A DNA stretch of 64,000 nucleotides from contig NZ_CP065958.1 in the NCBI RefSeq assembly GCF_041270065.1, forward strand, positions 868,001 to 932,000, written 5' to 3'. Positions 673-20,977 of this stretch are shown piece after piece; position 1 is the stretch's first letter, and the number at the start of each line of letters is the position of its first letter. The DNA comes from Streptomyces fradiae (GTDB lineage Bacteria; Actinomycetota; Actinomycetes; Streptomycetales; Streptomycetaceae). The translations under genes and the position numbers were made by a program. The notes below the pieces were generated by a model. It did not search any database and was not told the DNA's origin. It saw only the letters and a list, made by a program, of their open reading frames with translations.

Positions 673-2436
<1,764 letters not shown>

Positions 2437-2465
2437 ACGCAACGCCCCAGAAGGAGACCCTCCTC

Positions 2466-3950
2466 GTGAACATCGCCGACTTCCTCAGCCGCAGCGCGGC
2501 GGACCACGGCCCTCGCATCGCTGTCGAGCTGGGAGAGGACGCACTGACCTACTCCGAGCTCGACGCCCTCGCCGGCCGGACGGCCGCGTTCCTCAGAGCA
2601 CAGGGCATCCTGCCCGGTGACCGGGTCGGCATCATGCTGCCCAACACACTGGAATTCCCCGTCCTCTATTACGGTGCGCTGCGCGCCGGCGCCGTCGTCG
2701 TCCCGATGAACCCGCTGCTGAAGGCCCGCGAGATCGCCCACTACCTCAAGGACTCCGGCGCGGTGCTGCTGCTCGCGCACGACGGGGTCCTGGGCGCGGC
2801 GGTCGAGGGGAAGAGCGCCGCCGGCACGGAGGTCGCGATCGTCCCGATCGCGGACGGGTCGCTCACCGAACTGCTCGCCGACCACCCCGAGTCCGCCCGC
2901 GCCGCGGTCGGTGGCGACGAGGACACCGCCGTCATCCTCTACACCTCCGGCACCACGGGCCTGCCCAAGGGCGCCGAGCTCACCCACACCAACCTGGCCC
3001 GAAATTCCGAGATCGCCGCACGGTCGCTGTTCCACCTCACCGCCGAGGACGTGGTGCTCGGCTGCCTGCCGCTGTTCCACGCCTTCGGCCAGGCCGTCGC
3101 CATGAACACCACCATCAGCGTCGGCGCCCGCTTCACCCTGCTCCCCCGCTTCGAGCCGGCGCTCGCGCTGCGGACCGTCGAGCAGCGGCGGGTCACCCTG
3201 TTCGCCGGCGTGCCGACGATGTACGCGGCGATGCTCGGCGTGCACGCCCAGGAGCCCGGCACCCACGACACCTCCGCCCTGCGCCTGTGCGTCTCCGGCG
3301 GCGCCTCGCTGCCCGTCGAGGTCCTGCACGGCTTCGAGAAGGCCTTCGGCTGCCCCGTCCTGGAAGGCTTCGGCATGTCCGAGACCTCGCCCGTCGCCTC
3401 CTTCAACCATCCGGACCGCCCGCGCAAGGCCGGTTCGATCGGCACTCCGATCGAGGGTGTCGAGATGTGCCTCGTCGATGTGGTCGACGGCGTCGGCGAG
3501 CTGTGCGTCCGCGGCCACAACGTCATGAAGGGCTACTGGAACCGCCCGGAAGCCACCGCCGAGACGGTGAGGGACGGCTGGCTGCACACCGGCGACCTCG
3601 CCCGCGTCGACGAGGAGGGCTACTACTCCATCGTCGACCGCAAGAAGGACCTCGTCATCCGCGGCGGCTACAACGTCTACCCCCGCGAGATCGAGGAGGT
3701 GCTCTACGAGCACCCCGCCGTCGCCGAGGCCGCCGTGATCGGACTGCCCGACGACGTGCTCGGCGAGGAGGTCGCCGCCGCGATCGCCCTGCGCCCCGGC
3801 ACCTCGGCCACCCCGGAGGAGCTGCGGGACTTCGTCCGCGCCCAGGTCGCCCCGTACAAGTACCCGCGGATCGTCTGGCTGGTCGACGCGCTCCCCAAGG
3901 GCGCCACGGGCAAGATCCTCAAGCGGGAGATCGCGGCCACCCGTCCTTGA
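2466..3950 (+). CDS. AMP-forming acyl-CoA ligase (long-chain fatty acid/aryl acid type)
   Basis: It activates a carboxylic acid with ATP and joins it to CoA. The GTG at 2466, after an AAGGAGA ribosome site, gives 494 residues, normal for the ANL superfamily. Visible motifs in order are YTSGTTGLPKG (from about residue 159, P-loop-like A3), GFGMSET (A5), GWLHTGDLA (A7), DRKKDLVIRGGYNVYP (A8) and PKGATGKILKRE with the A10 catalytic lysine near the C-terminus. It follows the aldehyde dehydrogenase by 29 bases and probably shares its transcript. The motifs resemble long-chain fatty-acid ligases, but chain length cannot be decided from sequence. Confidence 0.92.
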   Translation: MNIADFLSRSAADHGPRIAVELGEDALTYSELDALAGRTAAFLRAQGILPGDRVGIMLPNTLEFPVLYYGALRAGAVVVPMNPLLKAREIAHYLKDSGAVLLLAHDGVLGAAVEGKSAAGTEVAIVPIADGSLTELLADHPESARAAVGGDEDTAVILYTSGTTGLPKGAELTHTNLARNSEIAARSLFHLTAEDVVLGCLPLFHAFGQAVAMNTTISVGARFTLLPRFEPALALRTVEQRRVTLFAGVPTMYAAMLGVHAQEPGTHDTSALRLCVSGGASLPVEVLHGFEKAFGCPVLEGFGMSETSPVASFNHPDRPRKAGSIGTPIEGVEMCLVDVVDGVGELCVRGHNVMKGYWNRPEATAETVRDGWLHTGDLARVDEEGYYSIVDRKKDLVIRGGYNVYPREIEEVLYEHPAVAEAAVIGLPDDVLGEEVAAAIALRPGTSATPEELRDFVRAQVAPYKYPRIVWLVDALPKGATGKILKREIAATRP

Positions 3951-4171
3951 GGGCGGGGCGACGCCGCCGCCGGCGTGCACGCCGTCTCCGGCGCGAAGGC
4001 GTCGGACGCTCCCCGGACGGCAGCACCTGAAGGGCGCCGCTTCCCACCCGCCACACACCGAGATCCTCGCTGGTCAACACGGTGAGGGCGACGACTGCTC
4101 ACCCGGCAGCAGGCAGCCGGCGCCGATCCGTCAGAGCGCCGTGCCATCGTCACGCGGATATGGTGTGAAAT

Positions 4172-5263
4172 GTGATCGAGTCTGGACGGCCGCGGCTCCG
4201 TCGGCTCCCCGGGCCCGGAGGGCTTGTGCGGTTGTCGCCGGTCATCCTGACCATCGCCATTGCCGGCCTGGCCTACGCCACCCCGCCAGACATGGCCTTC
4301 AGCCGCCTCCTGCCCGCGGCGCCGGCCCTGGCCGCCTCCATGTGGCCGGTCCTTCCGACCGTGCTGCTCGGGACGGTCTGCCTCCTCCTGATGATCGGCC
4401 TCAGCCTCGTCTTCCCCGATCTGGGGACGTGGTGGACAGCCGCGGGGATCATCGCGGTCACCGTGGCCGCCGCGTACGGAAGCCATGTCCGGCTCCAGCG
4501 GGAGCGCACCCTCTTCCAGGTACGGCTCGTCGCCGACGCGGCGCAGCAAGTCGTGCTGAGTCCTGTACCGCGCCGCTTTCGGAACGTCGAGATCGAGTCG
4601 CTGTACCTCGCGGCCGCGGCGGAGGCCCGCATCGGCGGGGACTTCTACGAGGTCGTCGACACGCCGTACGGCCTCAGGCTGCTCATCGGAGACGTACGGG
4701 GCAAGGGCCTGCCGGCCGTGGGGGCGGCCGCGGCCATCGTCAACGCCTTCCGCGAGGCGGCCTACGGCGAGAAGGACATGGTAGACGTCGCGCGCCGGCT
4801 GGACGCCAGCAGCACCCGCTACAACGCCGCGTTTCCCCCCGAGGGCCCGATGGAGCGCTTCGCGACCGCCCTTCTCGTCGAGATCCCGCACGAGGGCAGA
4901 CGTATCGACATCCTCAACTGCGGACACCCCCCGCCGCTGTTCCTCAACCGCGGGAAACTCCGCGTCCTGGAACCCGCCACCCCCTCGCCGCTGCTCAGCC
5001 TCGCGGAGCTGATCGGCCATCACTACAACGTCGACACCTACGACTTCACCCCCGGCGACCTGCTGCTCCTCTACACGGACGGGATCGCCGAGACCCGCGC
5101 GCGCGACGGCGAGTTCTTCCCGCTGGCAGCCTGGATGCGCGACCAGCCCCCGACACCTCCCCGCGAACTGCTCACGGCCCTTCACCGCGACCTCCTCCGC
5201 TACAGCAGAGGACGCCTCGACGACGACATCGCCGCCCTCGCCGTACGCCTGCGCGAGCGCTGA
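4172..5263 (+). CDS. Membrane-bound PP2C/SpoIIE-family serine/threonine phosphatase
   Basis: The 363-residue protein has an N-terminal membrane region of about three helices (residues 15-105), a short basic linker and a C-terminal PP2C_SIG/SpoIIE phosphatase domain. Metal-binding motifs are visible: GGDFYE (about 155), IGDVRGKG, and YTDGIAE with a following Asp-rich DDDIAAL near the end. Family members dephosphorylate anti-sigma-factor antagonists and are common in Streptomyces. No anti-sigma partner is adjacent, so its target is unknown. The GTG at 4172 is used because translation then runs straight into the first membrane helix. Confidence 0.85.
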   Translation: MIESGRPRLRRLPGPGGLVRLSPVILTIAIAGLAYATPPDMAFSRLLPAAPALAASMWPVLPTVLLGTVCLLLMIGLSLVFPDLGTWWTAAGIIAVTVAAAYGSHVRLQRERTLFQVRLVADAAQQVVLSPVPRRFRNVEIESLYLAAAAEARIGGDFYEVVDTPYGLRLLIGDVRGKGLPAVGAAAAIVNAFREAAYGEKDMVDVARRLDASSTRYNAAFPPEGPMERFATALLVEIPHEGRRIDILNCGHPPPLFLNRGKLRVLEPATPSPLLSLAELIGHHYNVDTYDFTPGDLLLLYTDGIAETRARDGEFFPLAAWMRDQPPTPPRELLTALHRDLLRYSRGRLDDDIAALAVRLRER

Positions 5264-5606: not shown

Positions 5607-6809
5607 TCACCCGAGGAAGTGGAATCCCGGCCGGGGGTGCATGAGGAAGTCGTGGTGCGAGATGTTCCACGCGTACGCGCCCGCGAGGCCGAAGGCCACC
5701 CGGTCGCCCGCCCGTAGGCCCCGCGCCGGGACGTGCCGGGCGAGGAGGTCCTTGGGGGTGCAGAGCTGGCCGGTCAGGGTGACCGTGTCGGATCCCGCGA
5801 CGGGGCGGGGCCAGGGGTGGGGCCAGGAGTGCACGGGCAGTACCGAGCAGGGCTGGTCGTGGCCCTTGGCCGCGGGGGTGCGCAGGTGGTGGGTGCCGCC
5901 GCGGACGACGGCGAAGTCCTCGCCGTGGCTGCGCTTCACGTCCAGGACCTCGGTGGCGTACCAGCCGCAGTACGCGGTGAGGGCGCGGCCCGGCTCGATG
6001 CGCAAGGTGAGGTCCGGGTGGTCGTCCAGGAGCCGGGCGAGGCCCTTGCCGTAGGTGGACCAGTCGTAGCGGCGCTCGGGGGTCGTGTAGTCGACGTGCA
6101 TGCCGCCGCCGACGTTGACCTCGGCGAGGCGGACGCGGTGCCGGGCGGCGAGTCGGGTGGCCCAGGTGACCACGGATTCGGCGACGCCGATCTGTTCCTC
6201 GGCCTCCAGACCGCTGGCGAGGTGGGCGTGGACGCCCAGAAGCCGCAGCTGCGGGAGGGTGCCGTCGGTCAGCAGGGCGACGGCGGTGTCGGCATCGGCG
6301 GGGTCGAGGCCGAAGGGGGTCGGCCGGCCGCCCATGGCGAGGGAGCTGCCCTCCAGGGACGCGGCGGACAGGGGAAGGTTGAAGCGGAGGAGGACTCCCA
6401 CCGGAGTGTCCGGGGCCCGGTCGGCGGCCAGGTCGGCGAGGACGCGCAGCTCGTGGAGGCTCTCCACGTGGAAGCGTTCCACCCCGAGGTCCAGGGCTGC
6501 GGCGATCTCCGCCGGGGTCTTGCCGGGCCCGCCGAACGCGAGGGGGCGGCCGGGCACGGCGCGGCCCACGTGGGCCAGTTCGCCGCCCGACGAGACCTCG
6601 TACCCGTCGACGTACGGCGAGAGCGCGGAGAGCAGTTCCGGTTCGGGGTTGGCCTTGGCGGCGTAGTACAGCTCGACGCGCTCGGGCAGCGCGGCCCGGA
6701 CCCCGGCGGCGTGCTCGCGCAGCGCCGTCAGGTCGTAGACGTAGGCGGGCAGGCCGTCGGAGGGCAGGTCGAGGACGAGGTCGCGCACGGCGCGGGTGGG
6801 GGCGGTCAT
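5607..6809 (-). CDS. Fold type III PLP-dependent decarboxylase of siderophore synthesis (PvsE/SbnH-like)
   Basis: This 400-residue alanine-racemase-fold enzyme resembles diaminopimelate/ornithine decarboxylases. Visible elements are the PLP lysine in AAKANP (Lys52), the HAHLASG motif (194-200), the phosphate-binding GGG (234-236), EPGR (272-275) and a Cys350/Asp354 pair in GQLCTPKD. It is the last gene of the siderophore operon and its ATG overlaps the stop of the upstream NIS synthetase by four bases. In vibrioferrin assembly the equivalent enzyme PvsE supplies the ethanolamine unit from serine; in staphyloferrin B, SbnH acts on citryl-diaminopropionate. The actual substrate here is inferred, not shown. 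Confidence 0.88.
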   Translation of the reverse strand: MTAPTRAVRDLVLDLPSDGLPAYVYDLTALREHAAGVRAALPERVELYYAAKANPEPELLSALSPYVDGYEVSSGGELAHVGRAVPGRPLAFGGPGKTPAEIAAALDLGVERFHVESLHELRVLADLAADRAPDTPVGVLLRFNLPLSAASLEGSSLAMGGRPTPFGLDPADADTAVALLTDGTLPQLRLLGVHAHLASGLEAEEQIGVAESVVTWATRLAARHRVRLAEVNVGGGMHVDYTTPERRYDWSTYGKGLARLLDDHPDLTLRIEPGRALTAYCGWYATEVLDVKRSHGEDFAVVRGGTHHLRTPAAKGHDQPCSVLPVHSWPHPWPRPVAGSDTVTLTGQLCTPKDLLARHVPARGLRAGDRVAFGLAGAYAWNISHHDFLMHPRPGFHFLG

Positions 6810-8581
6810 CGGGCGTGGCTCCACGAGTCGTCGGATGCTCCGGACAGCACGTCCTCGGCGAAAGGGGAGGGAAGCCGGACGTACCCCGCTTCGCGGTCGG
6901 CCTTGCGCTCCCAGCGGGTGAGCAGGTTGGCCTTGGCGGGCAGCGGGACGCCGGCGAGGAGCGCGGCGAGCCGGGGCGGGCAGCCGTGGCGGTCGGCGTA
7001 CGTCTGGAGGGTCACTCGGACCTGGGCCCACAGGGCGGGCTCGGTCTCGGGGTGCAGGTCGGCGACGGCGGCCAGCATCTCGGCGATGTGGTTGACGAAC
7101 AGGCAGTACACGACGCGGTCCCAGCCGCGCTCCGCGTCGTACGTCATGGGCCCGGCCACTTCGGCGGGCAGCGCGGCGAGGGTGTCGGCGTGGTGCTCGG
7201 GCAGCAGCTTGGTGCCCTCCAGGTCCCGGAAGAGCACCTGGGCGGGCATGGAGTCGTCGTCGACGCAGACGACCACGTTCTGCAGGTGGGGTTCCAAGAC
7301 CAGGCCGTGGTCGAAGTAGGCGGCCAGGACGGGCGGCACGAGGAGCCTGAGGTACGCGCTCCACCAGGCGAGCGCGGTGCCGGGGCCCGCACCCCCGAGC
7401 AGGCGCGAGAGGTGACCGGGGCCGCTGGGGTACTCGTCGGCGACGGCGGCGGCGAGCAGTGGCGAGGTGCCGGGGAGGATCCGGGTGGCGAGCCCTTCGC
7501 GGACGATCACGCCGAAGCCTTCGAGCAGACCGCGGTCGGGGTTTCCGTCGGGGCCGGGGAGGGCGAGGCTGCGGTAGGCCGGCTCGCGGAGCATGGCGCT
7601 GCCGGGGAATCGGACGGTGAGCTCGTCGAGTACGGGCGCGAGGAGCCGGGTCAGGGCGACGGCACCGGTCAGCTCGTAACTGGCGTTCTTCCGGAGGCAG
7701 TTGGTGATCCGGACGTTCAGGCTGAACTTGAGGAAGGTCTCGCCGTCGTAGAGGGTGCGAACGGAGGCCGTGGCGGCGAAGGGGGTGCCGCCGGTCCCGA
7801 GGTCCAGGATGTCGCCGCGATCGAGGGCGGCACGCAGTGCGGGGTGGCCGGCGAGCATCTCGTACTGCCAGGGGTGCGCGGGCAGCAGCCGGTATCCCTC
7901 CGGCAGGCCTCCCGGCCGGGCGTCGGCGAGCCGGTCGAGAGGTGTGGTCGCCGCCGGTGCGGCGGTCTCCTCGATGATCAGGTCCTCCCGGACCGCGAGA
8001 TGGCGCAGCGGGAAGGCGGCGCCGATCTCCGGGGCGTACGCGAGCCAGGAGGCGGCGTCGCCGGTACGGGCCTTGGGGGTGGGGTGGAAACGGTGGCCGA
8101 AGAGCAGGGACTGCTCGGAGGCGAGGTAGGTGTCCTGGCCGGCCGTGTCCTGGTCGTCGCCCGTGCCGGTCGTGCGGGCGGCGAGCGCCGCCGTGACGGC
8201 CTGGTGGCTGGAGGCGATCTGGTCGAGGAACTCGTCGTTGCGCACCCCGGTACGCGCCGACAGCTCGTCCTGGACGTGTCCCGCGAGGCGCCGCCATTCG
8301 ATGCGCTCCCAGGTCCCGTCGCGCTGCTCGTGGACCGGTCCGGTGAAGCGGTGCGCGCCGAGCAGCGACGTACGCCGCAGCGCCACGCGCAGCACCACGC
8401 CACGGCGGGGCAGGCGCAACAGGAGGTGGCCGTCGCTGGCGGCTGTCTGGTGCTCCGGTCCGGAGACCTCGCGCAGCAGGCAGTTGAGGAGGGTGTGCGC
8501 CACGACCGTGTCCGCGTCCGGCAGTTCGGCGGCGGCTGGGGTGTGGTGGGCGGTGCCCTGCGTTCGGGTCGGCGACATCAT
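6806..8581 (-). CDS. NRPS-independent siderophore (NIS) synthetase, IucA/IucC family (second, PvsD-like)
   Basis: It should condense a citrate- or 2-oxoglutarate-type carboxylate with an amine or alcohol through an acyl-adenylate. The 591-residue protein carries the IucA/IucC ATP-binding signature GHRFHPTPK (162-170), HPWQYE (236-241), the basic KFSLNVRITNCLRKN block (285-299) and a later LEPHLQN motif preceding a FhuF-like C-terminal half. The ATG at 8581 overlaps the stop of the upstream MFS gene, and a second ATG follows at once. Position four of five in the operon matches pvsD of the vibrioferrin system. Confidence 0.92.
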   Translation of the reverse strand: MMSPTRTQGTAHHTPAAAELPDADTVVAHTLLNCLLREVSGPEHQTAASDGHLLLRLPRRGVVLRVALRRTSLLGAHRFTGPVHEQRDGTWERIEWRRLAGHVQDELSARTGVRNDEFLDQIASSHQAVTAALAARTTGTGDDQDTAGQDTYLASEQSLLFGHRFHPTPKARTGDAASWLAYAPEIGAAFPLRHLAVREDLIIEETAAPAATTPLDRLADARPGGLPEGYRLLPAHPWQYEMLAGHPALRAALDRGDILDLGTGGTPFAATASVRTLYDGETFLKFSLNVRITNCLRKNASYELTGAVALTRLLAPVLDELTVRFPGSAMLREPAYRSLALPGPDGNPDRGLLEGFGVIVREGLATRILPGTSPLLAAAVADEYPSGPGHLSRLLGGAGPGTALAWWSAYLRLLVPPVLAAYFDHGLVLEPHLQNVVVCVDDDSMPAQVLFRDLEGTKLLPEHHADTLAALPAEVAGPMTYDAERGWDRVVYCLFVNHIAEMLAAVADLHPETEPALWAQVRVTLQTYADRHGCPPRLAALLAGVPLPAKANLLTRWERKADREAGYVRLPSPFAEDVLSGASDDSWSHAR

Positions 8582-9843
8582 CGGCTCCAGCGGGTGCGGA
8601 GGGGGTTCAGGAGGGGCAGAACGGTGGGCACGACGGTGGCCAGGGCCACGGCGGTGCCCGTGAGGACCGGGGCGGCCGGTCCGAAGAAGCTGTTGCCGAC
8701 GGCGGCGGCGACACCTGCCACGACGGCGCCGCCCTTCGAGAAGAACTCGAGCGAGCCGAACATGCCGCCGGGGGCCCGGCCCTTGGCGCAGTCGGCGGCC
8801 AGCGCGGACAGGCAGACGAGCCCGAGGGTGAGGCCGGCCCCGAGCACGAGACGTACCGCGGTGAGGGCGGGCAGCGAGTCGGCCGCACCGTGACCGGCGA
8901 GACCGAGCGCTATGCAGAGGAAGCCGAGGGCGAGGCCGAGCCGGGGGCGGTGGTGGAAGGACCTGTGCACCGCCATCGCCGTGGCCAGATAGCACAGGTG
9001 GGGCAGGGCGAACAGCACACCGGAGGCGGCCGGGGAGGTGCCGGGGATACGGTGCTCGATGAGCGAGATGAGGTACGGGAAGGAGATGACGGTGGAGAAG
9101 ACGAAGGCGAACTCCAGGGCGTACAGCGCCCGCAGGGAGGTCGCCGGCGCCCCTGCCTCCGGTTTCGCGGCCTCCGGTGCCTCCTCGGGAGCGTCCTTTG
9201 CCGTCGGCGTCTCGGCGTGCCCGCCCCGCGACTCCGGCAGCGCCCCGATCAGCAGGGCGGCGGTGAGCGGCAGCACGGCCAGCAGGGCGTACTGGCGGTG
9301 CGGCGAGAGCCAGGGCGACAGGGAGCCGACGACGATCGGCGCGAGGACGAGGGCGGCGCGCGCCGCACCCTGCATGAGGGTGAGGGCCTTCGACAGGGCC
9401 GGTCCCTCCAGTGCTGCGCCGAGGTAGCCGTTGGACGCGGCGAACGTGCCTCCGAGGATGCCCTGGAGGACGAGGGCGGCGGTGAAGGTCGCGATCGAGT
9501 CGGCCCAGCCGGCGAGCAGGAACGCCACGGCCAGCCCGAGTTGGGCGCGCAGCAGCAGCCGCTTGCGGCCGTAGCGGTCCGCGAGACGGCCCCAGAAGGG
9601 CGCGCCGACGGCGCCGAAGACGGTCGGGACGATGTAGAGGACGCCGGCCCAGCGGGCGGTGGGATCGCCGAGTTCGGGCAGGATCTGGGTCAGGAAGGGC
9701 GGCAGGCCGAGCGCGGCGAAGGACGCCACGAAGTAGCACCCGGCCACGGCGTGCACCTGCCGGCGGGCGAGGACGGGGCCCGCCGCGGGCGCGACGGCCG
9801 CTGCCGCGGTGGCGCCGTTCGGCGGGGCGGTGGTTGCACTCAT
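8578..9843 (-). CDS. MFS siderophore exporter (PvsC-like)
   Basis: A 421-residue protein with about 12 predicted membrane helices. The classical MFS loop between helices 2 and 3 reads GRLADRYGRKR, and the middle of the protein has a charged, Ala/Glu-rich linker (PTAKDAPEEAPEAAKPEAG). It lies between two NIS synthetases and overlaps both by four bases, so export of the finished siderophore is the natural role. In the vibrioferrin operon the MFS exporter PvsC takes exactly this middle place. Confidence 0.88.
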   Translation of the reverse strand: MSATTAPPNGATAAAAVAPAAGPVLARRQVHAVAGCYFVASFAALGLPPFLTQILPELGDPTARWAGVLYIVPTVFGAVGAPFWGRLADRYGRKRLLLRAQLGLAVAFLLAGWADSIATFTAALVLQGILGGTFAASNGYLGAALEGPALSKALTLMQGAARAALVLAPIVVGSLSPWLSPHRQYALLAVLPLTAALLIGALPESRGGHAETPTAKDAPEEAPEAAKPEAGAPATSLRALYALEFAFVFSTVISFPYLISLIEHRIPGTSPAASGVLFALPHLCYLATAMAVHRSFHHRPRLGLALGFLCIALGLAGHGAADSLPALTAVRLVLGAGLTLGLVCLSALAADCAKGRAPGGMFGSLEFFSKGGAVVAGVAAAVGNSFFGPAAPVLTGTAVALATVVPTVLPLLNPLRTRWSR

Positions 9844-11657
9844 CGTTCGGCCGTCCTCAGGTAGTTGGGGCCGGTGGTGTAGTGCTTGTTGATGTCCGCC
9901 GCGCCCGATCGCTCCTTGGACAGCAGCGTGCCGGCGGTGACCATGGCCTTGACGGGGAGTTCCGCCGCGTCCAGGACGTGCGCGCGCAGCACGGCGCCGG
10001 GCTCGCCCGGACCGGTGCCGAGCCGCCCGACGGTCTCGGCGAGCCGGTCCCGTATCAGGGTCAGCAGCGTCATGAGCGGGGCGCGGCCGTGGTGGGCGAG
10101 GCCGAAGGCGTAGGCGCCCGCGCACAGGTGCACGGTGATGGTGGTGAACAGGTCGGTGACGGCCCGGTCGTCGTCGCCGAAGATCCGGGCGTCGTCGAAG
10201 ACGGCCGCGTCGAAGGCGTCGGCGCCCAGGGTGTCCCGCAGCCGCCCGGTGTGGATGCGTGGGCCGTCGTTGTCCTTCAGCAGCAGCCGGAGCCGGGTGG
10301 CGCCGTCCGCCGCCCGGTCGAGGACGAGCGAGATGTTCTGCTGGTGGGACTCCAGGGCGATGCCGTAGCCGAACAGGGTGGTCTGCCAGTCGAACAGCAG
10401 GGTGAGCACGGCGTCGAGCAGGGCCACGGGGTCCCCGCCGTGGAAGCGGTCCGCGAGGTGGTCGATCACCAGCCGGCCTCCGGCGGCTTCGGCGAGCAGC
10501 GCCGCCATGGGGACGACGACGCAGTCGTCGAGGCCGGCCGGGTAGTGGCGGCACAGGACGGCCAGGAGTTCGTGCCCGGCGTGGGCGTACACCGTCTCGT
10601 CGGCGTGCAGGATCGTTTCGCGGAACCGTGGCTCCCGGGCGATCACGGTTTCCAGGAGCCGCTGACCCGCAGCGCCGTCGACGAGCGTTCCCGGCTTGAT
10701 GGTGCGCCGATTGCGCAGTCCCAGGGTCGCGGTGGCCAGCGGCAGCTTGAGGTGCAGGGAGGGGTCATCGGCCAGGGCGACCGTCCGCATGGACAGTGTC
10801 GGTACGACCTCGAGGTGGGGGCGCGGAGCAGGCACCGCCCGCTCATGCAGGCCGGTCGCCCGCAGGGCCTCCTCCAGCGGCGCGCCCGCGGTCAGCGGAT
10901 GGACGGGCAGCGCGAGGTGGGTACGGGACAGCTCCGGCAGCCCCAGCTCGGACGGCGACGGCCAGCAGGCGGGCAGGCGGTCGGCGCCGCCCGGCACGGT
11001 GACGGCCTCACGGGGCAGGGCGACCCAGCGCAGGGCGAAGCGCGGGTGGAACTCGGGGGCGTACGCGCGCACCTGATCGTCGTCCAGTCCCGAGCGGCCC
11101 CGGGCGGTGGGGTACACCGGGTGGTCGAGGCGGGCGGCGAGCGTGTCGTGCGCGAGACCTCCGGCGTACCCGGTCCAGCGGGCGGGGTCGTCCCCGTGGA
11201 GGTCGGTGAGCCGCGCTGCGGTCTCCTCGCGGGTCCGCTCGTGCAGCCGCATGGTGGCGAGGGTCTGCCGGCATTCCTCGGTGTACGCGTCGAAGCCGGG
11301 GTGGTCGACCGGCTCGGCCAGGGCCTTGAGGGCGGCGAGGATCTCGTCGTACGTGGTGAGCGTGCCGCCGTCCGGCTCTCGTACGAGCAGCGGCAGCCGG
11401 GCCGCGTGCGTGCTCTGGAAGCCGTCCTCTGTGACCGGCAGCAGCAGTGCGCCGCCGTCTTCGGTGGCCCGGCGCAGCCATGGGCCGTCGGTCCGCCGGA
11501 CGAGGGCGCTGCGGCTGCGCAGCCCGACGACGTCCTCTCGCAGCAGCGCGGACAACACCCGTAGGAGCAGGTCCCGTTCAGCTCTGCCCGTGCCCGTGCC
11601 CGTGCCCGTGCCCGTGCCCATGCCCACGACAGAAGCCTTTGCGGCGGTGGTCGTCAC
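9840..11657 (-). CDS. NIS siderophore synthetase, IucA/IucC family (first, PvsB-like)
   Basis: The 605-residue protein has IucA/IucC features: HPLTAGAPLEEA, the basic LKLPLATATLGLRNRRTIKPG block, ALESHQQNISLVLD and LLKDNDGPRI. It is only distantly similar to the other synthetase of this operon, which suggests the two use different carboxylate/amine pairs. The GTG at 11657 overlaps the ATP-grasp stop (GTGA). The first 25 residues include a Gly-Thr dipeptide run coded by a hexanucleotide repeat, and an in-frame ATG just before that run (residue 13) could be an alternative start. Confidence 0.92.
   Translation of the reverse strand: MTTTAAKASVVGMGTGTGTGTGTGRAERDLLLRVLSALLREDVVGLRSRSALVRRTDGPWLRRATEDGGALLLPVTEDGFQSTHAARLPLLVREPDGGTLTTYDEILAALKALAEPVDHPGFDAYTEECRQTLATMRLHERTREETAARLTDLHGDDPARWTGYAGGLAHDTLAARLDHPVYPTARGRSGLDDDQVRAYAPEFHPRFALRWVALPREAVTVPGGADRLPACWPSPSELGLPELSRTHLALPVHPLTAGAPLEEALRATGLHERAVPAPRPHLEVVPTLSMRTVALADDPSLHLKLPLATATLGLRNRRTIKPGTLVDGAAGQRLLETVIAREPRFRETILHADETVYAHAGHELLAVLCRHYPAGLDDCVVVPMAALLAEAAGGRLVIDHLADRFHGGDPVALLDAVLTLLFDWQTTLFGYGIALESHQQNISLVLDRAADGATRLRLLLKDNDGPRIHTGRLRDTLGADAFDAAVFDDARIFGDDDRAVTDLFTTITVHLCAGAYAFGLAHHGRAPLMTLLTLIRDRLAETVGRLGTGPGEPGAVLRAHVLDAAELPVKAMVTAGTLLSKERSGAADINKHYTTGPNYLRTAER
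11585..11626 (-). repeat. In-frame hexanucleotide repeat at the 5' end of a NIS synthetase gene
   Basis: Seven six-base units (plus-strand unit TGCCCG, the last two ending in A) code Gly-Thr repeats near the N-terminus. The array is perfect over its first five units. Confidence 0.85.
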
Positions 11658-12844
11658 GGCGCGATCTCCCAGCGCTGCGCGGCCAGGAAGTCCGCGACGA
11701 CCCGGTCGACGGTCGCCTGGTCGGTGCCGGTGGCCCGCAGCACGCCGAGGTAGTCACGGTTGGTGCGGTAGAGCTCGTGCCGCTCACCGGTCTCGCGCAG
11801 CGGGCGGTACGTCAGTCGCACTCCGTCGGTGTCGAGGTCGACGGGGCCGGGGGCGGACACGAGCGTTCCGGCGGTCCCGGCGCAGGGGTAGTCCAGGCGG
11901 GCCGCGCCGTCGGTGCGGGCCCCGAGGTCCGCGGGCAGCGGTTCGCCGAGGTGGCTGCGCAGGATGTGTTCGAAGAGCGGGATGTCGAGGAGCTGGGCGA
12001 GCAGCAGGTCGCACTGGTCGCCGATGGCCCGGTAGTTCACCTCGATGATGCGGGCCCGGCCGTCGTGGACGACGAACTCGGTGTGGCAGGCGCCGAAGCC
12101 GACGCCGAGGGCGTCGAGCTGGGCGAGGATCTGCTCGACGACCGGCTCGGGGTGGGCCGGGACGAAGGTCAGCCGCTCCTCGATGAAGTACGGCGGCGGC
12201 GACAGCTCGGTGTGGAATCCGCCGAGGACGTGCCGGATCCGTCCGTCGCCCAGCGTCTCCAGGGTGTACAGCTCACCGGCCAGGAACTCCTCCACGACCA
12301 GCGCGGCCTCGGGCCGCCGGGTCTGTATCTCCTTGCAGCGCAACGGGAGTTCCTCGCCGCTCCCGACCAGGACGACGTCCTCGCTGGCGACCCCCTCGCG
12401 CGGCTTGACCACGCACGGGTAGGGCACGTCGAGTGCGGCGAGCGAGGACGGGTCCTGCCCGGCGGGGAGTTCGGTGGACCAGACGGTGTCGGCGCCGGTC
12501 AGGGCGAGATGGCGGCGCAGGTGCGCCTTGTCCTTGGCGCGCAGCGCGGCCCGCCAGTCCTTGGCGGGCAGGCCGAAGTAATCGGCGGCCAGCGCGGCCT
12601 GGGTCTGGAGGTGGTCGCTGTTGGTGAAGACCGCGTCGGGCCGGTGGTGGGTGGAGATCCGGGTGATGACGGCCCGGAAGTCGCGTACGTCGCACTCCAG
12701 GATCTCGATGTCCGGGTAGGTCCGGCGATGGGAATCCGGCTGGTCCGTCAGGACGGTGACGTCCAGGCCGAGGCGGGCCGCTGCGGGGAGGAACCCCTCC
12801 GTGACCGAGTCTGTGGGATTCAGGGCGAGCAGATACAGCCGCAT
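11654..12844 (-). CDS. ATP-grasp amino-acid/peptide ligase of siderophore synthesis (PvsA-like)
   Basis: A 396-residue ATP-grasp enzyme forming an amide with an ADP-type acyl-phosphate. Visible motifs are VVKPREGVASEDVVLV (glycine-rich ATP loop), EEFLAGELYTLE and the metal-binding ACHTEFVVHDGRARIIEVNYR. The ATG at 12844 begins an N-terminal beta strand (MRLYLLALNP) typical of the fold; an upstream extension to 12913 would add a Pro-rich tail of no likely function. It is the first gene of the five-gene operon, 83 bases downstream of a strong iron box. In vibrioferrin synthesis PvsA, also ATP-grasp, adds alanine; that role here is inferred. Confidence 0.88.
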   Translation of the reverse strand: MRLYLLALNPTDSVTEGFLPAAARLGLDVTVLTDQPDSHRRTYPDIEILECDVRDFRAVITRISTHHRPDAVFTNSDHLQTQAALAADYFGLPAKDWRAALRAKDKAHLRRHLALTGADTVWSTELPAGQDPSSLAALDVPYPCVVKPREGVASEDVVLVGSGEELPLRCKEIQTRRPEAALVVEEFLAGELYTLETLGDGRIRHVLGGFHTELSPPPYFIEERLTFVPAHPEPVVEQILAQLDALGVGFGACHTEFVVHDGRARIIEVNYRAIGDQCDLLLAQLLDIPLFEHILRSHLGEPLPADLGARTDGAARLDYPCAGTAGTLVSAPGPVDLDTDGVRLTYRPLRETGERHELYRTNRDYLGVLRATGTDQATVDRVVADFLAAQRWEIAP

Positions 12845-12926: not shown

Positions 12927-12945
12927 TTAGGTTAGGCAACCCTAA
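12927..12945 (-). promoter_or_regulatory. Iron box (DmdR1/IdeR-type operator) of the siderophore biosynthesis operon
   Basis: The 19 bases TTAGGTTAGGCAACCCTAA match the actinobacterial iron-box consensus TTAGGTTAGGCTAACCTAA at 17 of 19 positions. It lies 83 bases upstream of the ATP-grasp start, where a promoter for the minus-strand operon would be. Confidence 0.9.
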
Positions 12946-13027: not shown

Positions 13028-13046
13028 TAAGGTAAGCCTGACCTCA
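13028..13046 (+). promoter_or_regulatory. Probable second iron box, in front of the 2Fe-2S reductase-like gene
   Basis: TAAGGTAAGCCTGACCTCA matches the iron-box consensus at about 14 of 19 positions and ends 23 bases upstream of the ATG at 13070. With the stronger box at 12927 it makes the divergent promoter region iron controlled on both sides. Confidence 0.7.
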
Positions 13047-13069: not shown

Positions 13070-13954
13070 ATGAGCAAGGATCCGGGGCCGTGGACCACCA
13101 CCGCGGGCACGGTCGGGCGCCATGCCCTCGTCGAGGCGTCTCCCCTCACGTGCACCTATCGGCGGACCATCGCGGCCTGCGACGCGCTCGATGTCCGGAT
13201 CGTCGACCCCGGGGCGATGGGCGACTCCGCCGCCTTCCTGCCCGACGGGGCGGACCTGGCCTGCGCCCCCGGCGTCCTCGACGCGTTCCTCGACGCCTCG
13301 GCGGCCCGTATCCGCGCACGCCACGGCCGCACTCCGCGCAGAGACGTCGCCGCCTCCCGGGCGCTGCACGACTACCTGTGGTCCGTCAGCCTCCTGATGA
13401 GCGGGGCCTGGTACCTGGATCGCCGCGTGCCGCGCATCGCGCCACGTGACATCCGTGTGGACCTGACGACGGGCGCGATCGGCATCGTCCCCGGGCAGGA
13501 CTTCGCATGCCTGCCGGACGACCCGGCGGCGGGCACGGCCGCTGCCCGGCTCGTGGGCCACGAGAACGAACTGCGGGCCGAGTTGCGGGCCGCGGTCGTC
13601 GATCACGTGCGTCCGCTGCTCGCCGCGATCGGCCCGACGATCCGGCGCGGACCGCGCGCCCTGTGGGGGATGGTGGCCGACGATCTGCTCTCCGGCATCT
13701 GGCACCTCGGCCGGATGCTGGGCCAGGAGGAACGCGCGGTGCGCGAGGCGACCGAGCTGCTTCCGACGGCGATCCCGCCCTTTCCGGGAGGGGCCGACTT
13801 CCGGCGCCTCAGCGGCCGCGACGGGCACCGCCACCCGACCCGCACACGCGCCGGCTGCTGCCTGTACTACACGATCGAACCGGACCGGGCCTGCCTGACC
13901 TGCCCGAGGACCTGCGACGCCGAGCGGCTGCGCCGGATCGAGGGCGAGGACTGA
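13070..13954 (+). CDS. (2Fe-2S)-binding ferric-siderophore reductase-like protein (FhuF type C-terminus)
   Basis: The 294-residue protein ends in a cysteine cluster, GCC followed ten residues later by CLTC, the CC-x10-C-x2-C arrangement of FhuF-family 2Fe-2S reductases. These reduce Fe(III)-siderophore in the cytoplasm to release iron. The rest is helical, with a conserved-looking HDYLWSVSLLMSGAWYL segment. The ATG at 13070 follows an AAGGAG site. It is transcribed away from the siderophore operon behind its own iron box, and it faces the siderophore-binding protein gene, so a role in unloading this siderophore is likely. Confidence 0.83.
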   Translation: MSKDPGPWTTTAGTVGRHALVEASPLTCTYRRTIAACDALDVRIVDPGAMGDSAAFLPDGADLACAPGVLDAFLDASAARIRARHGRTPRRDVAASRALHDYLWSVSLLMSGAWYLDRRVPRIAPRDIRVDLTTGAIGIVPGQDFACLPDDPAAGTAAARLVGHENELRAELRAAVVDHVRPLLAAIGPTIRRGPRALWGMVADDLLSGIWHLGRMLGQEERAVREATELLPTAIPPFPGGADFRRLSGRDGHRHPTRTRAGCCLYYTIEPDRACLTCPRTCDAERLRRIEGED

Positions 13955-14053: not shown

Positions 14054-15052
14054 CTACTTCGCCGGGTCGACCTTGAAGATCTTCGCCATGTCGTCGAGCA
14101 CCAGGTCGGCACCCTGGAGCGAGACGGAGGTCATCCAGACGGCGTCCTCGACCTCGTGGACGTTGCCCTTCTGCACCGCGTTCAGGCGCTTCCACAGCGG
14201 GTTGGCGAGGAACTTCTTCTTGCGCTCCTCACCGCCCGAGAAGGTCGTCATGAAGATGTGGTCGGCGTCCGCCTGCGCGATCTGCTCCTCGCTGATCTCG
14301 ATGTTGAACTTCTCCTGGTCCTGCTGGTTGGCGGGCCGGGCGAGCCCCATGTCGGTCAGGATGATGCCGCTGAAGGTCTTGGGCAGGTAGATGCGCGTCG
14401 GCCCGTCGAGAAAGCGCGTCAGCGAGTAGGTCTGCCCGGGGTTCTTGGCGTTGATCGCGTCGCCGATCTTCTTCGCGCGCGTCTGGTACGCCGCGAGCTT
14501 GTCGGCGGCCTTCTTCTCCTCGCCGAGAGCCGTGCCCAGGAAGGTGATGTTCTCCTTCCAGATCGGGCCGGTGGTCTTCACGAAGACCGTCGGCGCGATC
14601 TTGCTCAGCTGGTCGTAGAGGTCCTCGTGACGGACCGTCGCCGAAACGATGAGGTCCGGCTTGAGGGCGGCGATCGCCTCCAGGTTCGGGCTGTCGAGCG
14701 GGCCGACGTCCTTGGTGTCCTTCACCGCGTCACCGAGGTACGGGGGGAAGCCCTTCTGGTCGCGGTACGAGCCGATGCCGCCCACGAGCGGGGCGTCGAG
14801 GGCGACGACGGCCTCGACGAGGCTGTTGTCGAGCGCCACGACGCGCTTGGGCTTCGTCTTGATCTCGGTCTTGCCCTTGTCGTGAGTGACGGTCCGGGGG
14901 AAGCCCGCCTCGGAGGCGGCGGCCGGCTTGTCGGCGGCGGACTTGCCGTCGTCGCTCGTACCGCCGCAGGCGGCGACGGAGAAGGCCAGGGCCGCGGTGA
15001 GCAGGGCAGCGGCGAGCCGGCCGGGCCGGCGGCGCTGGGTGAGGGTGTTCAT
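14054..15052 (-). CDS. Iron-siderophore ABC transporter substrate-binding lipoprotein
   Basis: A 332-residue FecB/FepB-type binding protein. The signal peptide is a lipoprotein type: basic start, hydrophobic stretch, then the lipobox SVAAC with Cys29 as the lipidated residue. The two-lobed helical-backbone fold is indicated by RVVALDNSLVEAVVALD, LEAIAALKPDLIV and ADADHIFM segments. The ATG at 15052 follows a GGGAG site; an upstream ATG would only lengthen the signal peptide. It is divergent from the permease genes, with an iron box 26 bases upstream of its start. It should capture Fe-siderophore at the outer face of the membrane. Confidence 0.92.
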   Translation of the reverse strand: MNTLTQRRRPGRLAAALLTAALAFSVAACGGTSDDGKSAADKPAAASEAGFPRTVTHDKGKTEIKTKPKRVVALDNSLVEAVVALDAPLVGGIGSYRDQKGFPPYLGDAVKDTKDVGPLDSPNLEAIAALKPDLIVSATVRHEDLYDQLSKIAPTVFVKTTGPIWKENITFLGTALGEEKKAADKLAAYQTRAKKIGDAINAKNPGQTYSLTRFLDGPTRIYLPKTFSGIILTDMGLARPANQQDQEKFNIEISEEQIAQADADHIFMTTFSGGEERKKKFLANPLWKRLNAVQKGNVHEVEDAVWMTSVSLQGADLVLDDMAKIFKVDPAK

Positions 15053-15077
15053 GGGTCTCCCATACACGGACTGTCGC

Positions 15078-15096
15078 TTAGGTAAGGCTTACCTGA
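15078..15096 (-). promoter_or_regulatory. Iron box of the siderophore-binding-protein gene
   Basis: TTAGGTAAGGCTTACCTGA matches the iron-box consensus at 16 of 19 positions and is close to a perfect palindrome. It lies 26 bases upstream of the binding-protein ATG, in the 119-base divergent region. Confidence 0.88.
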
Positions 15097-15165
15097 GCGG
15101 GCGCTGTGAGGATAGCGCCTCTCCGTGACCGGATCCATACGGTGGGATAGTCGTACACTCAACCG

Positions 15166-15184
15166 TTAGGCATGCCTTACCTTA
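15166..15184 (+). promoter_or_regulatory. Probable iron box overlapping the start of the permease operon
   Basis: TTAGGCATGCCTTACCTTA matches the iron-box consensus at about 13 of 19 positions. It overlaps the first possible ATG of the permease gene (15172), which would place repressor directly over the transcription start or early leader. Confidence 0.6.
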
Positions 15185-16260
15185 TGCAGGTGTCTGTGAA
15201 GCCCGTCGCCGAAGGGGCGGCCACCGCGCCCCCACCTGCCCCACCACGCCCCCGACCCCCACGAGTTGCGGCGCGCGCCGTCATAGCGGCCCTGCTCGTC
15301 GCCGCGCTGATCGCGGCGGTCTGCGCCTCGCTCGCCATCGGCACCAAGTCCGTGCCGCTCTCCGACGTCCTGCACGCGATCGGCGGCGGGACGGACGGCG
15401 ACGCGGTCATCGTCCGCGAACTGCGCATGCCCCGCACCTTCCTGGGCCTGCTCGTCGGTCTCGCGCTCGGCGCGGCCGGAGCCGTCGCCCAGGACATCAC
15501 CCGCAACCCGCTGGGCGACCCCGGTCTCATCGGGATCAGCGCGGGCGGCTCGTTCGCCGTCGCGGCCGGTATCGGAGCGTTCGGGCTGACCAGTTCATAC
15601 CAGTACATCTGGTTCGCCTTCCTCGGCGGGGCGCTGGCCGGGCTGCTCGCCTACGCGGTCGGCGGCACCGGGTACGGCGGCGCCACCCCCGCCAAACTCG
15701 CCCTGGCCGGCGCGGCGGTGACCGTTCTCCTCGACGCCGGCACCAACACCCTGGTCCTCCTCGACGTCCGGACCCTGGACCAGTACCGCTTCTGGGCCGT
15801 CGGCTCGCTGGCCGGACGCGACGCCCACCTCGGCCTGGAACTCCTCCCGTTCGTCGTCGTCGGTCTCCTGCTGGCGATCGGACTGAGCGGCCGGCTCAAC
15901 GCCCTCGCCCTCGGCGACGACCTCGCCACCACCCTCGGCACCAAGGTCCGCACCACCCGGCTCCTCGGCGCCGTCGCCGTGATCCTGCTGACCGGCGCCG
16001 CCGTCGCCGCGGCCGGGCCCGTCACCTTCGTCGGCCTGGTCGTCCCCCATGTCGTCCGGGCGTTCACCGGGCCCGACGCCCGCTGGCTGGTGCCCTGTTC
16101 GGCGCTCGGCGGCGCCACGCTGATGCTCAGCGCCGATGTCGTCGGGCGCATGGTCGCCCGCCCGGGCGAGCTGGAGGCCGGCGTGGTCACCGCGATGCTC
16201 GGCGCCCCGTTCCTCGCCCTGCTGGTCAAGCGCGGCAAGCTCAAGGAGCACACCCGATGA
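15172..16260 (+). CDS. FecCD-family siderophore ABC transporter permease (first)
   Basis: A 362-residue FecCD/BtuC-type inner-membrane permease with about ten helices. Family landmarks are RELRMPRTFLGLLVG near the start of the transmembrane core, DITRNPLGDPGLIGISAGG, and GPVTFVGLVVPHVVR before the last helices. The start is uncertain: ATG at 15172 or 15184 (or GTG codons just after) all lack a good ribosome site and the first lies inside an iron box, so the message may be nearly leaderless. Its stop overlaps the second permease by four bases. It forms the channel with that partner. Confidence 0.9.
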   Translation: MPYLMQVSVKPVAEGAATAPPPAPPRPRPPRVAARAVIAALLVAALIAAVCASLAIGTKSVPLSDVLHAIGGGTDGDAVIVRELRMPRTFLGLLVGLALGAAGAVAQDITRNPLGDPGLIGISAGGSFAVAAGIGAFGLTSSYQYIWFAFLGGALAGLLAYAVGGTGYGGATPAKLALAGAAVTVLLDAGTNTLVLLDVRTLDQYRFWAVGSLAGRDAHLGLELLPFVVVGLLLAIGLSGRLNALALGDDLATTLGTKVRTTRLLGAVAVILLTGAAVAAAGPVTFVGLVVPHVVRAFTGPDARWLVPCSALGGATLMLSADVVGRMVARPGELEAGVVTAMLGAPFLALLVKRGKLKEHTR

Positions 16261-17345
16261 GCCTGCCCCGTACGACCACCCCGCGCATGGCCACCACTCT
16301 GCGCCTGGAGTTCGGCCCCTTCGGCGCGGCCCTGCGCCTCAGGGTCGCCCTCACCGCCGTCGCCCTCGTCCTGATCGGCTTCGCGGGCCTTGTCGCCTCG
16401 GTGTCGCTCGGTACGTACGCCATCCCCGTCGGCGACGCCCTGAACGCCGTCCTCGGCACCGGCGAAGGCGCCGCGGACCTGATCATCCACGAGCTGCGCC
16501 TCCCGCGCGCGCTGACGGCCCTCATGGTCGGCGCCGCGTTCGGCCTGGCCGGCGCCGTCTACCAGGCCGTCACCCGCAACCCGCTCGCCAGCCCCGACCT
16601 CATCGGCATCGCGGCGGGATCCGGCGTCGGCGCGGTCGGTGCCATACTCGTCGGCGGCGTCACCGCCGCCGGTGCGGGAACGTTCGTGGCCGTGCCCTTC
16701 GGCGCCCTGGCCGGCGCGCTGCTCACCTCCGCCGCCATCTACCTGCTGGCCTTCCGGGACGGCACCATCACCGGCTACCGCTTCGTCCTCGTCGGCATCG
16801 CCGCCAACGGCGCACTGGTCGCCCTCACCCGCTGGATGCTCGCCCGCGCCGACATCGACCAGGCGTCCCGGGCCATGGTGTGGCTCACCGGCAGCCTCAA
16901 CGGACGCGGCTACGAGCACGTCCAGTGGGCCGGGCTCGCCCTCGCGCTGCTGCTGCCGCTGACCGTGGCGCTGGCCCGCCCGTACCAACTGCTCCAGTAC
17001 GACGACGACACCGCCCGCAGCCTCGGCATCCCGCTGCGGTACGCCCGCATCGCGCTGCTCGTCCTCGCCACCTGCCTGACCGCCCTGGCCACCTCGGCGG
17101 CCGGCCCGATCGCCTTCGTCGCCCTCGGCGCACCGCAGATCGCCCGCCGGCTCGCGGGCACCCCCGGCATCCCGATGGTGTGCAGCGCGCTCACCGGGGC
17201 CGTCCTGCTCATCCTGGCCGACCTCGCCGCCCGGACCGTCCTCGCCCCGACGGAACTGCCCGTCGGCGTGCTCACCGGCGCCGTCGGCGCCCCGTACCTG
17301 CTGCTGCTCCTCGCCCGCACCAACCGGGCCGGAAAGGGAGGCTGA
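16257..17345 (+). CDS. FecCD-family siderophore ABC transporter permease (second)
   Basis: A 362-residue paralogue of the preceding permease. It shows the same landmarks, HELRLPRALTALMVGAAFG, AVTRNPLASPDLIGIAAG and GPIAFVALGAPQIAR. The ATG at 16257 overlaps the upstream stop (ATGA). The two subunits should form the heterodimeric membrane channel of the Fe-siderophore importer. About ten helices are predicted. Confidence 0.92.
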   Translation: MSLPRTTTPRMATTLRLEFGPFGAALRLRVALTAVALVLIGFAGLVASVSLGTYAIPVGDALNAVLGTGEGAADLIIHELRLPRALTALMVGAAFGLAGAVYQAVTRNPLASPDLIGIAAGSGVGAVGAILVGGVTAAGAGTFVAVPFGALAGALLTSAAIYLLAFRDGTITGYRFVLVGIAANGALVALTRWMLARADIDQASRAMVWLTGSLNGRGYEHVQWAGLALALLLPLTVALARPYQLLQYDDDTARSLGIPLRYARIALLVLATCLTALATSAAGPIAFVALGAPQIARRLAGTPGIPMVCSALTGAVLLILADLAARTVLAPTELPVGVLTGAVGAPYLLLLLARTNRAGKGG

Positions 17346-17346
17346 C

Positions 17347-18183
17347 ATGACCTCACAGGGCATGACCTCACAGCTCACCGAAGCCACGTCCGCCGCCCTG
17401 ACCGGGACCGGCCTGCGCCTCGGCTACGGCGACCGCCTCGTCGCCGAGGACCTCGACCTGAGCATCCCGGCGGGGAAGGTCACCGCGCTCGTCGGCCCCA
17501 ACGCCTGCGGCAAGTCCACCGCCCTGCGCGCCCTCGCCCGGCTCCTGAAGCCGGCCGGCGGCACCGTCCACCTGGAGGGCGAGGACATCGCCGGCCTGTC
17601 CGCCCGCGACTTCGCGCTGCGCCTCGCCCTGCTCCCCCAGACCCCCAGCGCGCCCGACGGCATCACCGTCCGCGACCTGGTGGCCCGCGGCCGCACCCCG
17701 CACCAGCGCTGGTGGCGCCAGTGGTCCTCCACCGACGAGGCCGCCGTCGACGCCGCCCTGACGGCCACCGGGGCGGCCGACCTGGCCACCCGCTCCATCG
17801 ACGAGCTCTCCGGAGGGCAGCGCCAGCGCGTCTGGATCGCCATGGCCCTCGCCCAGGACACCCCCGTCCTGCTCCTCGACGAGCCGACGACCTACCTCGA
17901 CCTGGCCCACCAGGTCGACGTCCTCGAACTCGTCGCGGAACTCAACCGCGTGGACGGACGCACGGTCGTGATGGTCCTGCACGAACTGAACCTCGCCTGC
18001 CGCTACGCGGACCATCTCATCGCCATGCGCGACGGCCAGGTCATCGCTGCGGGCACCCCCTCGGACGTCGTCACCCCGGACCTCGTCCAGGACGTCTTCG
18101 GGCTGCGCGCGGCCGTCATCGACTGCCCCGTGGCGGGCACCCCGCTCGTCATCCCGGAGGGAGGTCACCGAGCGGCGCGGTGA
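17347..18183 (+). CDS. Siderophore ABC transporter ATP-binding protein (FecE type)
   Basis: A 278-residue ATPase subunit with Walker A GPNACGKST (about residues 50-58), Q-loop LLPQTPS, signature LSGGQRQR, Walker B VLLLDEPTT and the switch histidine in VMVLHELN. It starts one base after the permease stop. The first 12 bases of the gene are directly repeated 15 bases later (ATGACCTCACAG at 17347 and 17362), so either ATG may initiate. It energises import by the binding protein and two permeases. Confidence 0.92.
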   Translation: MTSQGMTSQLTEATSAALTGTGLRLGYGDRLVAEDLDLSIPAGKVTALVGPNACGKSTALRALARLLKPAGGTVHLEGEDIAGLSARDFALRLALLPQTPSAPDGITVRDLVARGRTPHQRWWRQWSSTDEAAVDAALTATGAADLATRSIDELSGGQRQRVWIAMALAQDTPVLLLDEPTTYLDLAHQVDVLELVAELNRVDGRTVVMVLHELNLACRYADHLIAMRDGQVIAAGTPSDVVTPDLVQDVFGLRAAVIDCPVAGTPLVIPEGGHRAAR

Positions 18184-19433: not shown

Positions 19434-19640
19434 CAACAGGCCCTCAGAGGGCGGTTACCGGCCTCGGGGAACATCGGTACGTGCAGATCGCCAAGACCGT
19501 GCACTTGCTGCGCGTGGTCGACCCGGTCGACGACACCTACCGGCGGCAGACGAACCAACAGCTCACCGTGCAGGAGTCCCGCCACAAGCTTGCCCGGGAC
19601 ATGTGCCACGGCAAGCGCGGCACCATCCAGCGGCAGAGCG
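19434..19640 (+). pseudogene. Fragment of a Tn3-family transposase, frameshifted
   Basis: Frame 3 codes a RLPASGNIGT peptide up to about 19479; frame 2 continues YVQIAKTVHLLRVVDP, TYRRQTNQQLTVQESRH and ARDMCHGKRGTIQR. Read together they match the conserved C-terminal part of Tn3-family DDE transposases. One frameshift near 19479 breaks it, and neither the catalytic core nor the true C-terminus is present. It lies just upstream of the FAD monooxygenase/TetR pair, with a decayed serine resolvase on the other side, as expected for a decayed Tn3-like transposon. Family assignment rests on recalled motif patterns. Confidence 0.65.
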
Positions 19641-19822
19641 ACGATGTCCGGCCCGCGAGGAGGATCGGACCGGATCTCGGCGGTAGCGGAAAGAGGGCTC
19701 AGTTCGGTGCAGGGCGTCCTTGCGTTCGCCTACGGCGGCTTTGCCGGAAGGGACTGCGCGGTGCCGCACTGTCCTGTGAAGCCGTGGCGAGCTGTTGGTG
19801 CTGGTGCTCTCGCGCTCGGCAG

Positions 19823-20941: not shown

Positions 20942-20942
20942 A

Positions 20943-20959
20943 TCAATACACCGTATTGA
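20943..20959. promoter_or_regulatory. Probable TetR operator 1 (palindrome)
   Basis: TCAATAC and GTATTGA form a perfect 7-base inverted repeat around a 3-base centre. It begins one base upstream of the monooxygenase ATG and lies within the divergent region with the TetR gene. Confidence 0.7.
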
Positions 20960-20965
20960 ATCGAT

Positions 20966-20977
20966 GCGATGCATCGC
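20966..20977. promoter_or_regulatory. Probable regulatory palindrome 2 in the monooxygenase/TetR divergent region
   Basis: GCGATGCATCGC is a perfect 12-base palindrome, 18 bases upstream of the TetR ATG. It may be a second repressor site or part of one extended operator with the palindrome at 20943. Confidence 0.55.

Follow-up and report, generated by a model that had tools for sequence, protein, structure and literature searches.

Does a Streptomyces make vibrioferrin, or something close to it? The question is raised by a five-gene operon of Streptomyces fradiae that lies on the minus strand, from 12844 down to 5607, of a 64 kb stretch of DNA (bases 868001-932000 of a single-contig genome of 7.88 Mb; the whole stretch is called the window in the following). 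The genes, here named A to E, encode an ATP-grasp ligase, an IucA/IucC synthetase, an exporter of the major facilitator superfamily (MFS), a second IucA/IucC synthetase and a pyridoxal phosphate (PLP)-dependent decarboxylase, and a first-pass annotation had recognized in them the pvsABCDE operon of Vibrio. We consider it likely that this is a non-ribosomal peptide synthetase (NRPS)-independent siderophore operon of the vibrioferrin (pvs/xss) type, and that in iron-starved cells it yields vibrioferrin itself or a closely related citrate/2-oxoglutarate carboxylate. The pvs-type reading of the operon as such is well supported, by gene order, by gene-by-gene comparison with reference operons and by the phylogeny of the synthetases.

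Gene order and gene families

The positions and family assignments given in the first-pass annotation were confirmed by Pfam matches for all five genes: A (11654-12844, ATP-grasp_4, E 2.1e-8), B (9840-11657, IucA/IucC, E 7e-32), C (8578-9843, MFS_1, E 2.4e-25), D (6806-8581, IucA/IucC, E 2.6e-48) and E (5607-6809, fold-type III PLP decarboxylase, Orn_Arg_deC, E 1.3e-25), the counterparts of PvsA to PvsE, respectively. Reference operons were taken from annotated plasmid records of Vibrio sp. THAF190c, V. fortis, Cupriavidus necator (pHG1), Pantoea soli (in which A is annotated as PvsA) and Rhodococcus sp. WAY2. The order A-B-C-D-E was found in all five, including two operons of Vibrio, the genus for which it had been claimed, and it is also the order of the xss genes of Xanthomonas (xanthoferrin). 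When the window proteins were compared to four of these operons by BLASTP, each matched its positional counterpart best, with identities for A to E of 38, 33, 35, 33 and 43% to Vibrio and of 50, 44, 47, 48 and 57% to Rhodococcus. Overlaps of exactly four bases, as noted earlier, are present at all four junctions in the window, and equally in Rhodococcus sp. WAY2, but they are not a trait of Vibrio: the annotated starts of THAF190c give one four-base overlap, a gap of six bases and overlaps of 29 and 8 bases.

The individual enzymes agree with this assignment. The best solved relative of A, by sequence and by fold, is the L-amino acid ligase BL00235, with BacD/YwfE and RizA near; that of B, by profile and by fold, is SbnC; and that of D is AcsD (E 5.5e-73), whose positions are conserved in D. 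The decarboxylase E shares 43% identity with its Vibrio counterpart, but 28-32% with what is encoded at three further sites of its own genome. A plain diaminopimelate decarboxylase was rejected for E, which scores 162.7 bits against a LysA cut-off of 297.9 and is closer to the Vibrio PvsE than to the paralogues in the genome.

The closest named relative of the whole operon is that of Streptomyces sp. SKN60 (A to E 95-98% identical). A near-perfect hexamer repeat of 6.8 copies (11585-11625), which encodes a run of Gly and Thr residues in the first part of B, close to its start, does not occur at the equivalent place in SKN60. The search of the window against Rfam gave no matches, and the terminator-like sites between 5000 and 15300 (two) were about as many as expected (1.7).

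Phylogeny of the two synthetases

Two trees of NRPS-independent siderophore (NIS) synthetases were built, a quick one of 46 rows and a careful one of 40 rows that omits six of the former, SbnC among them. Only P0031, P0035 (written PsvB) and P0142 have their Pvs names from the source, and P0108, P0144, P0212, P0237 and P0241 were labelled in this analysis by their match to the Vibrio query. B clusters with the PvsB-named proteins (ultrafast bootstrap (UFboot)/Shimodaira-Hasegawa-like approximate likelihood ratio test (SH-aLRT) 100/100) and not with synthetases of other pathways, the grouping that the first-pass annotation had named as the one that would speak against it. For D the outcome was mixed: it does share a clade with PvsD (96/95), apart from IucA, IucC, AlcC and DesD, but AcsD lies inside that clade, which also contains a Xanthomonas campestris protein. 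The quick tree agrees with the careful one on both placements. Both B and D lie outside the DesD/AlcC/IucC clade; IucA groups with NIS1 of the same genome, and IucC and AlcC group with the genome's own DesD and NIS2. A desferrioxamine or aerobactin type was rejected by the same two trees.

Judged from these trees, the D half of the synthetase grouping is weaker than the B half, and the decision for pvs was taken because two synthetases occur together with an ATP-grasp ligase, in pvs order. The actinobacterial B and D proteins form clades of their own that are deeply split from the proteobacterial ones, for which reason a recent transfer from Vibrio was rejected.

Proposed route

Starting from the gene order, families and orthology, from the folds predicted for A and B, from the AcsD positions that D conserves and from the iron boxes described below, and borrowing the chemistry from homologous enzymes, we infer substrates, reaction order, product, regulation and the use of the neighbouring importer for this siderophore as follows. 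D would esterify citrate with L-serine, as AcsD does, and E would decarboxylate the serine of the citrate ester to ethanolamine. A, with its L-amino acid ligase fold, would activate L-alanine, or a different small amino acid, at its carboxyl group and join it to the ethanolamine amine, after which the SbnC-like B would cap the amine of the amino acid with 2-oxoglutarate, which then cyclises. The product would be exported by C, its ferric complex imported by a binding protein, two FecCD permeases and an ATPase and reduced by an FhuF-like protein, and the transcripts would be repressed by DmdR/IdeR through the iron boxes. Streptomyces hosts would allow each Pvs enzyme step to be assayed.

Distribution among actinomycetes

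A scan of named genomes gave at least 594 pattern matches, of which at least 503 encode a protein related to B (E 1e-3); other NIS enzymes may be among these. From these 80 loci were kept (L014-L093), all with actinobacterial titles; among the genera are Streptomyces, Kitasatospora, Nocardia, Kribbella, Arthrobacter, Sinomonas, Actinomadura and Microbispora. Within the genus, 72 of the 295 sampled genomes (the present one included) encode a homologue of B with an E value no higher than 1e-50, although two weak matches among the 72, G087 (5.6e-52) and G049 (1.5e-78), are maybe not true PvsB. In a sample of the phylum the count at E 1e-80 was 6 out of 396: the genome itself, four others of the genus and one of another family. 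In these samples the B homologue is thus frequent in the genus and sparse elsewhere, and the rarity in Streptomyces that the first-pass annotation had implied finds no support.

Clusters of this kind are already in print. The avs cluster of S. avermitilis (7320-7323) is termed 'vibrioferrin-like' in PMC9394381, and PMC7385001 gives an antiSMASH match 'vibrioferrin 18%' for S. tunisialbus. FW0622 of Verrucosispora is named in a review table for clusters of Brachybacterium and Brevibacterium. A structure tied to an actinobacterial pvs-type cluster was not found in the literature searched, a weak negative given that most subscription journals lie outside the search and sources were available in part. 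The pvs-type kind is therefore already known and common in the genus, and the operon of the window is a new member, a good example and not a surprise. Although vibrioferrin-type synthesis has been studied best in marine bacteria, relatives occur in many actinomycete genera, in Streptomyces often, and the pvs pathway is no marine or proteobacterial speciality.

Iron boxes and neighbouring uptake genes

For scoring we used TTAGGTTAGGCTAACCTAA, which we take to be the actinobacterial iron-box consensus (DmdR/IdeR type). The 64 kb contain only four sites with at most five mismatches, all at gene starts of the cluster: i) upstream of A (12927-12945, two mismatches out of 19); ii) upstream of the FhuF-like gene (13028-13046, four); iii) upstream of the binding-protein gene (15078-15096, three); and iv) at the start of a permease (15166-15184, five). 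The number expected at three or fewer mismatches in shuffled sequence was 0. A promoter-like pair on the minus strand (12953/12924) spans the box before A; one such pair was found between 5000 and 15300 versus 0.3 expected. In the relatives, a site with at most six mismatches lies within about 260 bp upstream of A in 45 of 77 loci, versus 17 of 1427 control stretches; the controls were drawn from these loci too and could contain further genuine boxes. Twelve of the loci lacking a site were listed, and in ten of these (L040, L046, L048, L049, L051, L053, L054, L062, L067 and L073; the exceptions being L069 and L074) a binding-protein gene lies directly upstream of A on the same strand, so that a box farther upstream could serve them.

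The genes next to the boxes include a putative ferric-siderophore importer. The FhuF-like gene (13070-13954, plus strand) encodes a putative ferric-siderophore reductase with a C-terminal 2Fe-2S motif (FhuF_C 24.4 bits, cut-off 20.5) and with weak matches to TIGR03950 and TIGR03951, under their cut-offs. It is followed by the gene for an iron-siderophore binding protein on the minus strand (14054-15052, starting at 15052 or 15067; Peripla_BP_2, E 2.2e-32), whose best NCBIfam model is an Fe(3+)-dicitrate binding protein, under cut-off. On the plus strand come two FecCD permeases (15184-16260, E 7.1e-87, and 16257-17345, E 5.8e-84) and the importer ATPase (17347-18183, ABC_tran, E 2e-31), whose best NCBIfam models are ferric enterobactin and ferric dicitrate ATPases, again under their cut-offs. 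The longest open reading frame (ORF) of the first permease begins at the ATG at 15172, but 15184 is the likelier start because the iron box covers 15172. Probably the feature is wider than 5607-12844, and the FhuF-like gene, the importer genes and the four boxes, up to 18183, belong with the operon. No TonB-dependent receptor was found among the neighbouring window genes scanned.

On the other side of the operon (673-5263) lie an aldehyde dehydrogenase-like ORF, an AMP-binding enzyme and a SpoIIE phosphatase-like ORF. Beyond the importer, within 19481-20974, a short stretch of about 50 residues resembles part of a Tn3 transposase; it lies near a minus-strand ORF for an FAD monooxygenase, the closest model of which is Tet(X), with a score far under its cut-off.

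Turnover of exporter and importer genes

The presence of C was classified in 75 of the 80 loci, five (L020, L022, L048, L059 and L063) being skipped as they lack A or D. Between B and D a full C was found in 35 loci, none in 37, where B and D are no more than 423 bp apart, and a partial one in three (300-669 bp). The partial genes (L069, 10743-11228, 486 bp; L071, 10951-11250, 300 bp; L062, 669 bp) look as if they were decaying exporters or assembly errors. An importer was counted when at least two of the four window importer genes were matched at 35% identity or more, a rule that overlooks importers of an unrelated type. Mapped onto a tree built from the joined A, B, D and E sequences, C switches between present and absent at least 17 times, and an importer nearby does so at least 13 times. 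Of the 80 loci, 64 could be scored for both (a row was omitted when C was partial, genes were missing or the upstream sequence was short): 31 lack both, 28 have both, three have C alone and two the importer alone. In a sign test on phylogenetically independent pairs the median p was 0.039 (range 0.039-0.125). With this modest statistical weight, exporter and importer tend to co-occur or to be jointly absent around a stable A-B-D-E core, and their linked presence and absence offers a natural test of the evolution of siderophore sharing.

The importer type of the window is in the minority. A binding protein more than 80% identical to that of the window occurs in four of the 75 loci (L014, L023, L055 and L072, the last being SKN60); the others are 42-47% identical in 27 loci, 26% in L056 and 65% in L090 (Plantactinospora), and that of Rhodococcus sp. 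WAY2 is 71% identical. To the binding protein of the window, the Rhodococcus and Plantactinospora proteins are thus closer than those of 27 of the 33 loci having one, which suggests that 14054-18183 is a swapped uptake module.

A broader picture can be drawn from this turnover and the distribution, though we hold it to be doubtful: an ancient actinobacterial branch of the vibrioferrin type would make its own, as yet unisolated carboxylate siderophore in about a quarter of Streptomyces species, with transport genes repeatedly swapped or lost around the stable core. If true, producers and users of one public good could be distinguished genome by genome.

Alternative products

Several observations weigh against vibrioferrin or a close analogue. 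In the trees, AcsD sits within the proteobacterial D group (98/92; exact place 90/62) and, as drawn, is nearer to the Vibrio PvsD than the D of the window is; a PvsD clade without AcsD was neither recovered nor rejected (approximately unbiased (AU) test, p 0.095), and long branches were flagged in both trees. An iron box near A is lacking in 32 of the 77 relatives. The importer differs in type from that of most relatives having one, so that it may serve another chelate. The amino acid used by A cannot be read from the sequence, and a review (PMC5577590) assigns PvsA as the ester former and PvsB and PvsD as amide formers and calls the Pvs functions untested.

The alternative that survives best is a narrower case of the preferred explanation, namely that the product of the pvs-type operon differs from vibrioferrin and is a novel carboxylate siderophore in which the amino acid or the amino alcohol is a different one; its chance we put slightly short of even. 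The actinobacterial and proteobacterial enzymes separated long ago, as the deep split of the B and D clades indicates, and B and D are 33-36% identical to their Vibrio and Pantoea counterparts, but the shared operon skeleton, the decarboxylase and the AcsD positions that D conserves speak for the retention of citrate and of ethanolamine derived from serine.

An achromobactin- or staphyloferrin B-like siderophore, built from citrate, 2-oxoglutarate and a diamine, is very improbable. It would account for the closest solved structures (AcsD for D, SbnC for B) and for the place of AcsD within the PvsD group. The achromobactin (acs) and staphyloferrin B (sbn) pathways, however, use three IucA/IucC enzymes plus diamine-making genes. 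Of the five IucA/IucC domains in the genome two are at the window locus, together with the ATP-grasp ligase, and the other three are megabases away; no diamine-synthesis family occurs among the Pfam-scanned ORFs of the window, the rest of the genome lying outside that search. Hardly credible, finally, is a silent or decaying relic without a functional product, for which the partial exporter genes of three relatives and the presence of DesD, and so of another siderophore, in the same genome could be cited, against five open frames, four intact overlaps, the iron boxes and the near relative SKN60, which keeps all genes at 95-99% identity.

Comparison with known systems

With the operon counted, the strain has three NIS loci: the operon, a NIS pair at 6.01 Mb (L095) and a DesD gene at 2.80 Mb (L096), so that pvs-type and DesD genes co-exist in one genome. 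These other synthetases share the superfamily and the genome with B and D, but are encoded at separate loci and fall into separate clades; of the pair, one groups with IucA and the other with type C enzymes. A rhizobactin-like cluster has been reported in all eight Streptomyces of PMC3848822, and the pair at 6.01 Mb may be that cluster.

Among the systems with solved relatives, achromobactin acs resembles the window in AcsD (D) and staphyloferrin B sbn in SbnC (B), but a cluster of three NIS enzymes is in neither case matched by the two at the window locus. The avs table of PMC9394381, compared by its descriptions only, lists three genes annotated as siderophore synthetase components and a decarboxylase, like the window, but no exporter, and avs could be an A-B-D-E form without one.

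Plasmid pRWAY01 of Rhodococcus sp. WAY2 has an operon that is like that of the window in its A-E order, its overlaps and its binding protein, but unlike it carries a gene of the aldolase/citrate lyase family. Such a gene is also present in the operons of Cupriavidus and Pantoea, and it was seen with the pvs-type operons L024, L027, L049, L050, L070, L078, L080, L007, L008 and L009; a search of the window with the proteins of Rhodococcus and Cupriavidus gave no relative at E 1e-5. SbnG is a dedicated citrate synthase, and the genes in those operons perhaps encode enzymes like it. From the pvsABCDE operons of Vibrio (two records) the window differs in its FecCD importer and FhuF-like gene, in its DmdR/IdeR-type boxes and in its modest identity (33-43%), but in gene order and in all five families the two are alike.
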